Below are positions 21,273 to 46,857 of a stretch of DNA of 64,000 nt, piece by piece (position 1 is the stretch's first letter; every line of letters starts with the position of its first letter). The translations under genes were made by a program, and so were the position numbers. Origin of the DNA: Stenotrophomonas sp. SAU14A_NAIMI4_5 (lineage in GTDB: Bacteria > Pseudomonadota > Gammaproteobacteria > Xanthomonadales > Xanthomonadaceae); NCBI RefSeq assembly GCF_003086795.1, contig NZ_CP026003.1, positions 578,503 through 642,502 of the forward strand. The letters are read 5' to 3'. Below the pieces are notes generated by a model, which searched no databases, was not told the origin of the DNA, and saw only the letters and a list, made by a program, of their open reading frames with translations.

Positions 21273-21815
21273 ATGCCCGACAACAGCGATTATTTCGACT
21301 TCGAAGAAGACGCCCACGATTTCGACGAAGACGACTTCGAGGCGCGGGTCTGGAACCTGCTGGTCCTGATCAATCCGGGCGACGAGGAGCTGGCGCTGCA
21401 GCAGTTCAACCGCTGGCGCGAGCACCTGGCCGAGGACGGGCAGCCGCTGGAAGCGGACAGTGACTGGGTGCCGGCGCTGTTCACGGCCATCGCCTGGCAG
21501 TCGGGCTTCGAGGTGGAGCGTGATGACCTGGAATCGCTGCAGTCGGCGGTGAACGAGCTGTCGGCGCGCTTCAACCTGCAGCTGGACTGGGGCGGCGACC
21601 TGGACGACGAGGATTTCGCTGCCGACCTGGACGGCGTGCAGCTGATGTCCACCGCCTTCGACCGCCTGCGCGAGCACAACTACACGCTGTGGAGCGTGGA
21701 TGCGGGCAGCGACGGCTTCACCGGCTGGATGGCGCTGACCCGCGACGACGACGCGCTGCTGGCGCTGTGCTCGCTGCTGAATCTGGAAGTGCGGCTGGGC
21801 AGCGACCCGTTCTGA
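21273..21815 (+). CDS. Acidic conserved hypothetical protein (DUF6630-like)
   Basis: This 180-residue, strongly acidic protein has an Asp/Glu-rich N-terminus (DFEEDAHDFDEDDFEARV). A compact domain follows (VWNLLVLINPGDEELALQQF, DWVPALFTAIAW, TGWMALTRDDDALLALCSLL). It may belong to DUF6630, but I am not sure of that assignment, and no function is known. The ATG at 21273 follows AAGGA at 9 bp. A TAGAAT -10-like box lies at 21240-21245. The last seven codons and the stop are duplicated 128 bp downstream. Confidence 0.75.
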   Translation: MPDNSDYFDFEEDAHDFDEDDFEARVWNLLVLINPGDEELALQQFNRWREHLAEDGQPLEADSDWVPALFTAIAWQSGFEVERDDLESLQSAVNELSARFNLQLDWGGDLDDEDFAADLDGVQLMSTAFDRLREHNYTLWSVDAGSDGFTGWMALTRDDDALLALCSLLNLEVRLGSDPF

Positions 21816-22046
21816 TCGGTAGCGCCGGGCCCAAACCCCATCCACGCATGGCGTGGATCTACTGGATGCATCCGACCATGCACCACCGGTAGCGCCGGGC
21901 CATGCCCGGCGGCTTCTCGCCGCTGGGCAGCGACCCGTTCTGATCGGTAGCGCCGGGCCCAAACCCCATCCACGCATGGCGTGGATCTACTGGATGCATC
22001 CGACCATGCACCACCGGTAGCGCCGGGCCATGCCCGGCGGCTTCTC
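21794..22046. repeat. 125-bp tandem duplication including a gene's 3' end
   Basis: Bases 21794-21918 recur identically at 21922-22046. Each unit holds the last seven codons and TGA of the acidic protein gene, a truncated GTAGCGCCGGGCCC, the palindrome CATCCACGCATGGCGTGGAT and a complete SMAG element. The second copy of the coding end is orphaned. Confidence 0.95.
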
Positions 22047-37423: not shown

Positions 37424-37614
37424 GGAAAGCGCATTCCTGGAAGCGAAAACAAGGCAACAAGTCCCCGAGGATGCACGACGGTTGCAACGGGAATCAAACC
37501 GCCGCACCGTACGCGTGCGTAGTGTTTTCCCCGGGAATCACGCATCCCGTTGATGCACAACGACCATACTTCGCCGTCTGGGCCGGTACGGTGCGGTTAT
37601 CATGTCAGCCAACC

Positions 37615-38709
37615 ATGAACGCACTGCGCAAGATCATCCACGTCGACATGGACGCCTTCTACGCGTCGGTGGAGCAGCGTGACGACCCGTCACTGCGCGG
37701 CAAGCCGGTTGTCGTGGCCTGGCGCGGCGCGCGTTCGGTGGTGTGCGCGGCCTCGTACGAAGCGCGGGTATTCGGCGTGCGCTCGGCGATGCCGGCCCTG
37801 CGTGCCGAGCGCCTGTGCCCGGATGCGATCTTCGTGCCGCCGGATTTCGCGCGTTACAAAGCCGTGTCACGCCAGGTGCGCGAGATCTTCCTGCGCCATA
37901 CCGACCTGGTCGAACCGCTGTCGCTGGACGAGGCCTACCTGGACGTGACCGTGCCGAAGAGCGGCATCGAACTGGCCACCGAGATCGCCCGCACCATCCG
38001 CGCGCAGATCCGTGAAGAAACCAACCTGACTGCTTCAGCCGGCATCGCGCCGAACAAGTTCCTGGCCAAGATCGCCTCGGACTGGCGCAAGCCTGACGGC
38101 CAGTTCGTCATTCCGCCGCAGCGCGTGGACGCGTTCCTGCTGACCCTGCCGGTGAAGAGCGTGCCGGGCGTGGGCAAGGTGATGGAAGGCAAGCTGGCCG
38201 AGCGCGGCATCATCACCTGTGGTGACCTGCGCAACTGGACGCTGCCGGACCTGGAAGAAAATTTCGGCAGCTTCGGCCGCAGCCTGTACAACCGCGCCCG
38301 CGGCATCGACGAACGCCCGGTGGAACCGGACCAGCAGGTGCAGTCGATCTCGTCGGAGGACACCTTCGCCGAAGACCTGCTGCTGGAAGACCTGGGGGAG
38401 GCCATCGTGCAGCTGGCCGAGAAGACCTGGAACGCCACGCGGAAGACCGAACGCATCGGCCACACCGTGGTGCTGAAACTGAAGACCGCCCAGTTCCGCA
38501 TCCTCACCCGCAGCTACACCCCCGACCGCCCACCGGAATCGCTGCAGGAACTGCGCGACATCGCCCTGTCCCTGCGCGCCCGCGTCGACCTGCCCGCCGA
38601 CACCCGCTACCGCCTGGTCGGCGTCGGCCTCGGCGGATTCCGCGATAAAGAACCGGTCGTGCAGGGCGAACTGTTTGGGCACGACCCAAACAATCCAACA
38701 GATATCTAG
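37615..38709 (+). CDS. dinB: DNA polymerase IV (Y family)
   Basis: This 364-residue polymerase carries the catalytic acidic residues in IHVDMDAFYASVEQ (Asp near 10) and PLSLDEAYLDVT (Asp-Glu near 105). It also has the Y-family fingers segment AASYEARVFGVRSAMP and the helix-hairpin-helix VPGVGKVMEGKLAERGI. It performs translesion synthesis. The ATG at 37615 is chosen from homology; the in-frame extension upstream is not conserved sequence. No LexA box is obvious upstream. A GGGTCAGAGCCC-class hairpin follows 12 bp after the stop. Confidence 0.93.
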   Translation: MNALRKIIHVDMDAFYASVEQRDDPSLRGKPVVVAWRGARSVVCAASYEARVFGVRSAMPALRAERLCPDAIFVPPDFARYKAVSRQVREIFLRHTDLVEPLSLDEAYLDVTVPKSGIELATEIARTIRAQIREETNLTASAGIAPNKFLAKIASDWRKPDGQFVIPPQRVDAFLLTLPVKSVPGVGKVMEGKLAERGIITCGDLRNWTLPDLEENFGSFGRSLYNRARGIDERPVEPDQQVQSISSEDTFAEDLLLEDLGEAIVQLAEKTWNATRKTERIGHTVVLKLKTAQFRILTRSYTPDRPPESLQELRDIALSLRARVDLPADTRYRLVGVGLGGFRDKEPVVQGELFGHDPNNPTDI

Positions 38710-38826: not shown

Positions 38827-38851
38827 GGCGGGGTGGGTCCGGTTGCGGGGG
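38827..38851. repeat. Left arm of a long palindrome interrupted by IS110
   Basis: These 25 bases (GGCGGGGTGGGTCCGGTTGC and GGGGG) are the exact reverse complement of 40205-40229. The following CGTGAGCGCCATGG resembles the loop start of the 1744-1847 palindrome (CGTGAGCCGCATGG). Confidence 0.9.
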
Positions 38852-38960
38852 CGTGAGCGCCATGGGCCCGAGGCATGCCTCGGGCGGGTTGGGCAGGACG
38901 CCCAACCCCGGTCTTGCCGTGTGCGCAGGACAGCGCACACGAGCAAGCGCGACCGAGCCT

Positions 38961-39167
38961 TATCTGATCGGAATCTGGCAGCGTAGGTGTCGAGAGCCGG
39001 CGTGGGCCGCCGTGCGAGCCTGGATCTCGACGATCGCCATGGAGCTTGGCGCCCACGCCGGAATCTCCCTTGATCCGCCCGAACAGTTGCTGGAGCAGAC
39101 ACTCGCAGTGATAAGACTGGGCAAGCGGGGGAGCTCTCGACCCTTCCAGACTATACGGAGTCCGGTG
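38961..39167 (+). ncRNA. Candidate IS110 bridge RNA region
   Basis: The left end before the transposase gene is noncoding and structured. CCGGCGTGGGC (38997-39007) pairs perfectly with GCCCACGCCGG (39051-39061), enclosing an internal loop, and about 105 bp remain before the ATG. In IS110-group elements the left end encodes a bridge RNA with target- and donor-binding loops. Assignment here rests on position and one strong stem only. Confidence 0.45.
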
Positions 39168-40082
39168 ATGAACGGGATCGGGATTGATGTCAGCAAGCGC
39201 CAGCTGGATGTCGGCACGACGGACGGAGAGACCCTGCAGGTCAGCAATCACCTCACCGGGTTTTCTGAATTGGATGTTTGGCTGAGAAAACATCCGGCCG
39301 CCCAGATCGTGCTGGAGGCTACCGGCGGCTATGAACAGCCCGTGCTGGATTTCCTGCACAAGGCTGGCCATCCGGTGGTCCGTGCCAATGCCCTGCGGGC
39401 CCGCAGGCTGGCCCAGGGGATGGGCCATATCGCCAAGACGGACCGCTTGGATGCCTACGCGCTGGCGCAGATGGCTGCGCTGGTGAAACTGCCTCCCTAT
39501 CAGCCGCTAGAGCTTTGGCAGCAGAAGATGCGGGAGTTCGTGCGAGCGCGTCGTCAGGCGATGGAAATGTTGACCATCGCGCGGCAGCAGCAGGAAATGG
39601 TCGGTGATCGTGAATTGCGCCGGCTGCTGCAGGCCAACATCAACCGCCAGCAGGCGCTGGTTGAACGCCTGGGGAAGCAGATTGCCGAGCAGGTCGCCCA
39701 GCAGCCTCAACTGGCTGTCCTGAAGTCGATGAAAGGCGTGGGACCAGCGCTGCAGGCCGTACTGGCAAGTTATCTGCCAGAGCTTGGCAGGATCAGTGGC
39801 AAGCGCATCGCCAGCCTGGTCGGTGTGGCGCCCATGTCCCACGACAGCGGCACCATGCGCGGGAAACGAAGCATCCAAGGTGGCAGGGCTGAGATCCGCC
39901 AGGTGCTCTACATGGCGGCGATGTCGGCCATGCGGCATGAACCTCGATTGCGCGACTTTTACCAGTCGCTGCGAGCCCGCGGCAAGGAGGGCAAGGTGGC
40001 CATCGTGGCGGTGATGCGGAAGATGCTGGTGATCCTCAACGCCCGCGTGCGCGACGCTGAAAGCGGACCGATCCCCGCTTAA
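39168..40082 (+). CDS. IS110-family transposase (DEDD recombinase)
   Basis: This 304-residue protein has the N-terminal RuvC-like DEDD domain, IGIDVSKRQLDVG (Asp7 region), IVLEATGGYEQPV (Glu) and KTDRLDAYALAQMA (paired Asp). A coiled-coil linker and the C-terminal Tnp20 domain follow (LKSMKGVGPALQAVLASYLP, SGKRIASLVGVAPMSHDSG) with the conserved Ser. All key motifs are present and the frame is intact, so the enzyme looks functional. The ATG at 39168 begins MNGIGIDVSK. Codon use differs a little from neighbours (more CAG-rich helices), as expected for a mobile gene. Confidence 0.92.
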   Translation: MNGIGIDVSKRQLDVGTTDGETLQVSNHLTGFSELDVWLRKHPAAQIVLEATGGYEQPVLDFLHKAGHPVVRANALRARRLAQGMGHIAKTDRLDAYALAQMAALVKLPPYQPLELWQQKMREFVRARRQAMEMLTIARQQQEMVGDRELRRLLQANINRQQALVERLGKQIAEQVAQQPQLAVLKSMKGVGPALQAVLASYLPELGRISGKRIASLVGVAPMSHDSGTMRGKRSIQGGRAEIRQVLYMAAMSAMRHEPRLRDFYQSLRARGKEGKVAIVAVMRKMLVILNARVRDAESGPIPA

Positions 40083-40111
40083 CAGGCGCGTATCTGGGCA
40101 TCCTCAGAGGC

Positions 40112-40134
40112 TGCCGGCCAGCGGCCGGCACTAC
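40112..40134. repeat. SMAG element
   Basis: TGCCGGCCAGCGGCCGGCAC ending in CTAC lies just outside the tentative right end of the IS110 element. Confidence 0.75.
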
Positions 40135-40204
40135 CGTGCGCGTCTGCTGGGAGGGCCTGAGCCCCTCCAACAACACAGTTGCTCCATGGACGGATTCACG
40201 GCGT

Positions 40205-40229
40205 CCCCCGCAACCGGACCCACCCCGCC
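40205..40229. repeat. Right arm of the IS110-interrupted palindrome
   Basis: This is the exact complement of 38827-38851. The preceding CCATGGACGGATTCACGGCG resembles the sequence before the right arm of the 1744-1847 palindrome (CATGGACG...GCGT). The 230-bp gap between the transposase gene and the next gene otherwise holds only a GGAGGG-type hairpin near 40150 and one SMAG element. Confidence 0.9.
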
Positions 40230-40312: not shown

Positions 40313-41224
40313 TCAAGGCCACTGCATCTCGCCCTTGGCCACCTTCGCACTCAGCTCCAGCGACTCCACGCCCGCCAGCGTCGGATAACGCGCCTGCATC
40401 GCCTTCACCAGCGCCGCACTGTCCTTCGCCTTCGCCGTTTCCACATCGAACGCGCGGATGTAATCGGCAGTAAAACGCAGCGCGCTCGCATCCAGCGCCG
40501 CACCCGGCGCGTAATGACCCGGCACCACCACCTTCGGCTTCAGCGCCTGCAGCCGCTGCAGCGTCTGCAGCCAATCGGCATGCGACTGCGGCGTCTGCGT
40601 ATCGGCCATCCACACATGCTCACCGGCCACCACCGGAATGCCACCCACGATCGCGCGCAGCGACGGCACCCACAGCACCGTGCGGTCCGGCGTCGGCCCA
40701 TCCAGCCCGATCAGCGGCAGGCGCTGGCCTTCCAGCTGCAGCGCATCGCCGTCCAGCACCTGCGGCACGACGATGCGCGCGGGCGCGTCAGCACCCATCT
40801 TCGGGCCCCAGTACGCCAGCTTGCCGGCCTGGGTCTGTTTGATGTGGGCGACGGTCTGCGCGGTGGCGACGATGCGTGCCTGCGGGAACGCATCCTGCAG
40901 CGTGGCCAGGCCGAAGTAGTAATCCGGATCGCCGTGGCTGATGTAGATCGTGGTCAGCTGCTTGTCGCTGGCGCGGATCTTTTCGACCAGTGCGCGCGCA
41001 TCGCTGGCCGCGAACTGCGCATCGACCAGGATCACCTCATGGCGGCCTTCGATCAGCACCGAGGACACCGAGAACATCGCCTGCGGGCCGGGATGGAAGG
41101 TCTGCAGGTGCAGCTGTGATTGCTTCGCCGCGGTGGCTGCGGGCGTGGCCGGTGCGGCCAGCAGCGGTGCACTGGCGAAACCGGCAGCCAGTGCGAGGGG
41201 AAGCAGTAGGGCAGCAGTACGCAT
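40313..41224 (-). CDS. Exported metallo-beta-lactamase-fold protein with degenerate metal site
   Basis: This 303-residue protein has a signal peptide (MRTAALLLPLALAAGFASAP, about 24 residues). The fold is visible in SSVLIEGRHEVILVDAQFA, TIYISHGDPDYYFGLATL, VVAGEHVWMAD and VVVPGHYAPG. The HxHxDH signature is reduced to HGDPDY: the first His and the Asp remain, but two histidines are replaced. Normal two-metal hydrolase activity is therefore doubtful. It may bind a single metal or use another chemistry. The ATG at 41224 restores a clean signal peptide. It is monocistronic and convergent with the IS element. Confidence 0.8.
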   Translation of the reverse strand: MRTAALLLPLALAAGFASAPLLAAPATPAATAAKQSQLHLQTFHPGPQAMFSVSSVLIEGRHEVILVDAQFAASDARALVEKIRASDKQLTTIYISHGDPDYYFGLATLQDAFPQARIVATAQTVAHIKQTQAGKLAYWGPKMGADAPARIVVPQVLDGDALQLEGQRLPLIGLDGPTPDRTVLWVPSLRAIVGGIPVVAGEHVWMADTQTPQSHADWLQTLQRLQALKPKVVVPGHYAPGAALDASALRFTADYIRAFDVETAKAKDSAALVKAMQARYPTLAGVESLELSAKVAKGEMQWP

Positions 41225-41237
41225 CAACGATTCCTCG

Positions 41238-41301
41238 TGTAGAGCCGAGCCCATGCTCGGCTGCAGTGGTTGCCTCGAGCCGAGCGCAGGATCGGCTCTA
41301 C
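41238..41301. repeat. Dimeric SMAG hairpin
   Basis: GTAGAGCCGAGCCCATGCTC at 41238 is matched by GAGCCGAGCGCAGGATCGGC-TCTAC ending at 41301. It lies in the promoter side of the degenerate MBL gene and downstream of the reductase gene. Confidence 0.8.
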
Positions 41302-46574: not shown

Positions 46575-46765
46575 TCGCGACCTGAGGCTTCCGGGCCGGT
46601 CTCCGGGCTTGCCGCCAGGTGGCGCGAGGCCACCGTCCAGGCGCCTTCCCATGCCAGAGGCACAGTGGCGATGTTGCCTGGAACAGACGTGCTTACCGTT
46701 GCGGGGGCAGCGCCGGCCTGGCGTGTTGCCACGCGTCACCGGCTTCCCGTTTCAACCTGCCGGCC
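46575..46765 (-). promoter_or_regulatory. Cobalamin riboswitch
   Basis: On the minus strand the order of conserved blocks is complete: ACGGGAAGCCGGTG (46744-46757 region), CCCCGCAACGGTAAGCA, GCCACTG, CATGGGAAGGCG, then the B12 box AAGCCCGGAGACCGGCC at 46594-46610. This matches the adenosylcobalamin riboswitch consensus. It ends about 115 bp before btuB and should repress it when cobalamin is abundant. Outer boundaries are approximate. Confidence 0.92.
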
Positions 46766-46857
46766 ATGGCCGCAGGTCACCTGGAAGTGGGCGCAGTCTA
46801 CGGCATCGTCCATCAGGGCGTTAGAGTAGCGGCCCTGCTTTGTTTCAAGGACGCTCC

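Follow-up and report, generated by a model that had tools for sequence, protein, structure and literature searches.

A Stenotrophomonas IS110-Group Element in the Loop of a Dispersed Palindrome, and a Predicted Bridge RNA Region Coinciding with Rfam sX15

The locus and the element

The window analyzed here is a stretch of 64,000 nucleotides from Stenotrophomonas sp. SAU14A_NAIMI4_5, whose genome is 4.57 Mb in size. The locus is bounded on one side by a Y-family polymerase gene (Pfam IMS, 37471-38709), presumably dinB, at its 3' end, and on the other by a metallo-beta-lactamase-fold gene on the opposite strand (40313-41254). Between them, a 304-codon gene is bracketed by exact 25-bp inverted arms, with the lactamase-fold gene on their far side. 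The arm sequence has no third place in the window at up to three mismatches, and gave 0 matches in 100 shuffles. The following features are recognized at the locus:

38827-38851, no strand, left arm of the palindrome (exact 25-bp inverted repeat; host repeat, outside the IS)
38852-38960, no strand, left loop part of the palindrome (long variant), ending in the core CT (38959-38960)
38961-40181, plus strand, IS110-group element, delimited by edges common to copies at other loci and by uninterrupted sites at the same locus
39168-40082, plus strand, IS110 recombinase of 304 aa (Pfam DEDD_Tnp_IS110 and Transposase_20)
40109-40135, no strand, REP-like hairpin within the right IS end (repeat family; also in Stenotrophomonas copies)
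40182-40204, no strand, core CT (40182-40183) and right loop part of the palindrome
40205-40229, no strand, right arm of the target palindrome (exact inverted repeat)

The recombinase has both the DEDD RuvC-like domain and the Tnp domain with the catalytic serine, and the first-pass annotation, made from the sequence letters, was right to see in it a transposase with IS110 motifs between exact inverted arms. It aligns with IS621 (PDB 8wt6, E 4.8e-30) and with ISCro4. In the printed alignment D7, E50, D92, D95, and S227 face D11, E60, D102, D105, and S241 of IS621, residue names being those of the IS621 paper (the 8wt6 chain numbering is two higher).

The element is the sole full copy in its genome, which also holds two partial relatives (34-37% identity). 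Copies elsewhere have 84-90% protein identity within the genus and about 61% in Xanthomonas. Such copies, located at different loci, have common edges, GAGC-CT/TATCTG on the left and CAACACAGTTG/CT on the right (the slash marks the edge). With related copies collected, the left end proposed earlier at 38961 stands, and the right end proposed at 40096 is ruled out by the common right edge at 40181; the REP-like hairpin at 40109-40135 therefore lies inside the element. CT adjoins 38961-40181 on either side. The noncoding ends comprise 207 bp on the left (38961-39167) and 99 bp on the right (40083-40181), so that the noncoding sequence is long to the left, upstream of the recombinase, and short to the right, the layout of the IS110 group. 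With the REP-like hairpin, the IS itself carries a repeat of host type.

The target palindrome and its uninterrupted sites

The degenerate target loop, RAGCYYMCAYGGAYG, has 82 copies in the genome (reversed-pattern control, 0), two of them within the window at about 1516-1530 and about 1795-1809, in agreement with the earlier remark that the loop around the element resembles other palindromes. Arms and loops were inspected at 30 of the 82 sites, those that come first on the chromosome. Of these palindromes, 27 have a loop of 52 nt, one has a loop of 54 nt, and two have loops of 130-131 nt; the interrupted palindrome in the window is the long variant, and 14 or more further genome places contain bases 31-132, or more, of its left half (40 of 101 candidates scored).

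It is extremely unlikely that the 25-bp arms are part of the element, whether as its terminal repeats or as the boundaries of a Piv-like invertible segment. They do bracket the element and are perfectly complementary, but arms of 23-28 bp (88-100% complementary, 21 distinct sequences) occur in 30 of 30 unoccupied palindromes, relatives hold the palindrome without the IS at the same locus, and other IS copies have other flanks. These observations rule out the arms as a part of the IS, and since arms vary among unoccupied copies, the 25-bp arms are host sequence.

A survey of the same locus in 61 genomes gave 29 loci other than the window's own, 22 with the right-hand gene as anchor and 18 with a readable target. 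The palindrome is found without the IS in these 18 relatives, with the empty-site core CT in nine, TT in six, and CC in three. Eight of the nine CT sites read CT-CCATGGACGG, and seven of those eight are preceded by GAGC. Relatives with the uninterrupted site provide exact before/after pairs. Across elements, 119 of 122 left junctions have CT as core (two TT, one GT), as do 72 of the 72 right ends found, in a search that itself required C; a dinucleotide core is present at both junctions and in the empty target. The inner hairpin of the palindrome is found in the left flank of 46 of 48 elements with the window's guide type. Insertion sites are thus related to palindromes, and the earlier proposal that this palindrome family is the target holds. 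In the window's own genome CT occurs in one of 82 unoccupied loops, yet the occupied loop has CT, so the occupied site is of a type that is rare here.

Several minor features of the repeat family were observed. The long variant contains an extra multi-hairpin stretch (38872-38950), common to 14 other genome places. In the dinB-lactamase interval (records L202-L230) loop types differ by strain (CT-CCATGG, TT-ACATGG, CC-CCATGG) and some arms differ, as if loop cassettes were exchanged between palindromes. Thirteen neighboring loop pairs among the 82 are 279-399 bp apart, all minus then plus; such pairs are divergent doublets, each perhaps a single composite repeat. The loop pair in the window lies within a 52-nt inverted repeat (1400-1451 / 1877-1928).

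The predicted bridge RNA and its guides

The noncoding left end has the following features, all on the plus strand:

38989-39141, predicted bridge RNA region (closing stem 38989-38997 / 39133-39141; structure counted on 42 sequences)
38997-39007 / 39051-39061, inner stem within this region, 11-bp, perfect
39014-39021, left target guide and core, GCGAGC-CT (best scan window against left flanks; flank CGAGC-CT)
39037-39044, right target guide and core, CCATGG-AG (best scan window against right flanks; reverse complement of CT-CCATGG)
39083-39091, left donor guide, ACAGTTG-CT (equals the right IS end plus core)
39110-39115, right donor guide, GATA-AG (reverse complement of CT-TATC at the left IS end)

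A left-end profile built from 11 sequences recovered 174 loci in 136 distinct contexts. Fourteen of these were dropped (short, N, no left flank, or N in the flank), leaving 122 rows (94 unique); right ends were located for 72 of the 122, and the right-flank scan used 50 unique rows. Each 6-nt flank was compared, in both senses, with every 6-column window of the aligned left end. Left flanks match best in the same sense, at the window before CCT (4.78 versus 2.62 expected, z 16.6, 94 unique rows; excess 2.15, next best window 0.68). Right flanks match best as the reverse complement, at the window before AG (4.90 versus 2.72 expected, z 10.1; excess 2.18, next best window 0.77). Read from the plus strand, this guide polarity equals that quoted for IS621.

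The signal persists when one random member is taken per cluster. At 90% identity it is reached by 0 of 9000 permutations on the left (19 clusters) and by a fraction of 0.0003 on the right (nine clusters); at 85% and 80% identity the fractions are 0.0002-0.008. Within clusters, guides follow flanks significantly in the window's own cluster (0.014 left, 0.003 right) and on the right in the REP cluster (0.006). Marginal values are seen for left guides in the REP cluster (0.05) and for right guides in the Xanthomonas cluster (0.055), and the left-guide signal is absent from the attC cluster (p 0.74) and from one Xanthomonas cluster (p 1.0). Guide and flank match over only about 6 nt plus the core, with frequent mismatches, and some guide cores are not CT.

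The donor loop contains ACAGTTGCT and GATAAG, matching the two ends of the element. ACAGTTG is found in 37 of 42 left-end sequences, and GATA-AG varies across the 42. Both kinds of guide known from the IS110 group are thus present, those for the target covarying with flanks and those for the donor matching the ends.

A four-helix structure pairs 95.7% of 1175 cells in the 42 left ends, a value reached by 0 of 500 shuffles, the structure having been set from these same sequences, which favors it. Twelve pairs are changed on both sides and the covariation score is 0.208 (each 0 of 500 shuffles); the count of further pair types, 25, is reached by 37 of 500 shuffles. Sliding the helix partners lowers pairing to 35-43%. 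The first-pass annotation had described a noncoding left end of about 200 bp with an 11-bp perfect stem as a probable bridge RNA, and had suggested a search for complementarity between its target loop and the palindrome. Stem and length were read correctly, the helices covary and the structure is conserved, and of the two target guides one fits the left flank directly and the other fits the right flank as its reverse complement. Covariation of guides with flanks, beside that of the helices, is the strongest in silico test of a bridge RNA available, and the predicted RNA passes it.

One backbone, several targets

At the sequence level, the guides borne by a single predicted RNA backbone address at least five kinds of target (the window palindrome, REP-like hairpins, attC-like sites, a Xanthomonas repeat, and a further GATCC type), and flank types accompany guide types across the aligned contexts. 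REP-like hairpin targets go with GTGGAT, GTGGCT, TCGGCT, or CTCCGCT. The attC-like targets go with TAACGC, and their right flanks resemble integron cassette ends; the attC and REP assignments follow the consensus sequences of these elements. The Xanthomonas repeat target reads CACCCCAACCC-CT-CTCCCG. The GATCC-CT guide and flank type is represented by L094 and L142-L144, four copies in one genome whose contigs end before the transposase.

In all of the palindrome, REP-like, attC-like, and Xanthomonas-repeat types the sites adjoin palindromic hairpins, and the recombinase or host chromatin could pick hairpins (cruciforms) directly, guide matches being a by-product. Direct choice of hairpins predicts neither the covariation of guides with flanks nor the CT core, which the occupied loop has and 81 of the 82 unoccupied loops lack, and it is considered very unlikely.

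RNA-guided insertion is the explanation preferred here, with high confidence. The element is an IS110-group member whose left end encodes a predicted bridge RNA with target guides fitting a CT-centered site in a loop that is conserved across a dispersed hairpin family, and with a donor loop fitting the element's own two ends. In the target loop, one short guide matches the left half of this site and the other is complementary to its right half. By analogy with IS621, recombinase and RNA would then join a circular donor (right end-CT-left end) to the target CT. Sister elements have the same RNA backbone with other guides and are inserted in other repeats.

Rfam sX15 on the opposite strand

Two features of the left end are on the minus strand:

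38984-39141, minus strand, match to Rfam RF02234 sX15, full length (1-159 of 159), 179.3 bits versus a gathering score of 55
39150-39155, minus strand, -10-like motif TATAGT, 8 nt upstream of the annotated sX15 5' end

The Rfam model is on the strand opposite to the transposase, and its region coincides with the predicted bridge RNA. Matches to sX15 are found in 89 of 395 family genomes (71 above the cut-off) and, with stricter filters, in 0 of 14 control genomes. Among 130 records checked, sX15 is antisense to the recombinase in 103, with the transposase downstream in the IS sense (other sense, 0). The remaining 27 have no transposase match, 18 of them with less than 500 bases of contig past the left end and nine with room. 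In one of the 27 (L137), the bases past the left end begin an IS110-like frame, and no match therefore does not mean absence. In three records (L131, L183, L184; the last two are the same locus in two genomes) the left end with the RNA region is followed directly by the palindrome, with no transposase; these are solo RNA remnants.

In 35 of 38 sequences a TANNNT stops 5-8 nt short of the sX15 5' end on its upstream side, compared with a mean of 1.5 and a maximum of 5 under shuffling; this spacing was chosen post hoc, an initial 7-9 nt having given 3 of 38 and most spacings being 6 nt, and four of the 42 sequences, which have no stem anchor, were left out of both counts. Over the aligned region no other TANNNT column, on whichever strand, is as frequent (36 of 42; next, 28). 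A scan of 38850-39350 for consensus promoters found none.

Wobble pairs were compared between strands. Read from the minus strand, the pairs set by hand would contain 26 G-U cells distributed over seven pairs, 17 of them on a single pair; read from the plus strand, they would contain 15 such cells over 10 pairs. RNAalifold counts 81 G-U versus 10 A-C cells for the plus structure on the plus strand and 22 G-U versus 16 A-C cells for the minus structure on the minus strand. Since its structures favor the strand of computation, only common or hand-set pairs were weighed; pairs common to both structures give 14 versus 9.

These data bear on whether the working guide RNA is read from the minus strand and is sX15 itself, as an antisense RNA would pair equally with the opposite DNA strands. 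The strand of the Rfam model, the conserved -10-like motif, and the larger minus-strand G-U count favor such a reading. Against it, most of those G-U cells sit on one pair, guide polarity equals that of IS621 when read from the plus strand, and transcription of the IS621 bridge RNA is driven by a promoter that arises where the right and left ends are joined, according to the available text of PMC11208160 and PMC11208158. Guidance by the minus strand is regarded as unlikely.

The preferred reading keeps a plus-strand bridge RNA, proposed by analogy with IS621, beside a minus-strand sX15 RNA, predicted from the Rfam model and the -10-like motif. A promoter lying immediately upstream of the transposase start may give rise to this minus-strand RNA, which may regulate expression of the guide or the transposase. 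As a tentative proposal, held with slightly less than even confidence, sX15 could be the antisense RNA of a bridge-RNA transposon family in which both guide strands are transcribed and a conserved promoter that overlaps the start of the transposase drives the minus strand; this RNA would tune bridge RNA or transposase, and the backbone would have been re-aimed among several unrelated palindromic repeats. Open-access full-text searches found in print neither a tie of sX15 to IS110 nor the window palindrome as an IS target; in the open-access text available, sX15 is a single table entry, with the strand unstated there.

Relation to known systems

The RNA-guided mechanism is already known from IS621, and the principle of guide/target covariation is not new. 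In the available text (PMC11208160, PMC11208158), Durrant et al. describe such covariation over thousands of IS110 pairs, with motifs for 16 guides. According to the same text, IS621 resembles the element described here in having a recombinase with DEDD and serine residues, an extended noncoding region at the left end, split guides of equal polarity in its target and donor loops, a CT core, and a palindromic repeat target. Unlike IS621, the present element has as its target the loop of a long palindrome with variable arms and has an annotated opposite-strand RNA (sX15); its expression and activity are predicted.

Elements of IS1111 type have a short left end and a long right end (PMC11208160, PMC11208158, available text); the present element does not fit that group, its noncoding RNA region being upstream, its left end long, and its right end short. 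The seekRNA elements, which are of IS1111 type, include ISPa11 (REP) and ISKpn4 and ISPst6 (attC), as given in the accessible parts of PMC11187229. RNA-guided choice of REP or attC sites is a likeness, sister elements here being also found in REP-like and attC-like sites; the upstream noncoding region is a difference.

In ISPpu9, an element that targets REP, the antisense RNA Asr9, whose promoter is near the start codon, covers the 5' region of the transposase and raises its expression (PMC8450116, available text). sX15 is likewise a predicted small RNA antisense to the transposase 5' region, with a putative promoter near the start codon; Asr9, by contrast, is a measured RNA. Earlier work on IS elements in REPs concerns members of the IS110 family that insert specifically into extragenic palindromes and have 2-bp repeats; the palindrome there is a different one, and Xanthomonas and Stenotrophomonas have 0 occurrences in the available text (PMC1525189).

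The Rfam family sX15, annotated merely as a Xanthomonadaceae sRNA, gains an identity by coinciding with the bridge RNA region, and its matches can mark IS110 left ends, which is a warning for annotation. A single backbone that has at least five natural kinds of guide and whose flanks are known amounts to a natural experiment in re-aiming, and whether bridge RNA elements carry an antisense RNA becomes testable.

Elsewhere in the window, a cobalamin riboswitch (RF00174, 94 bits) is found on the minus strand at 46577-46799, and a direct tandem duplication of 128 bp, 99% identical, at 21791-22046.
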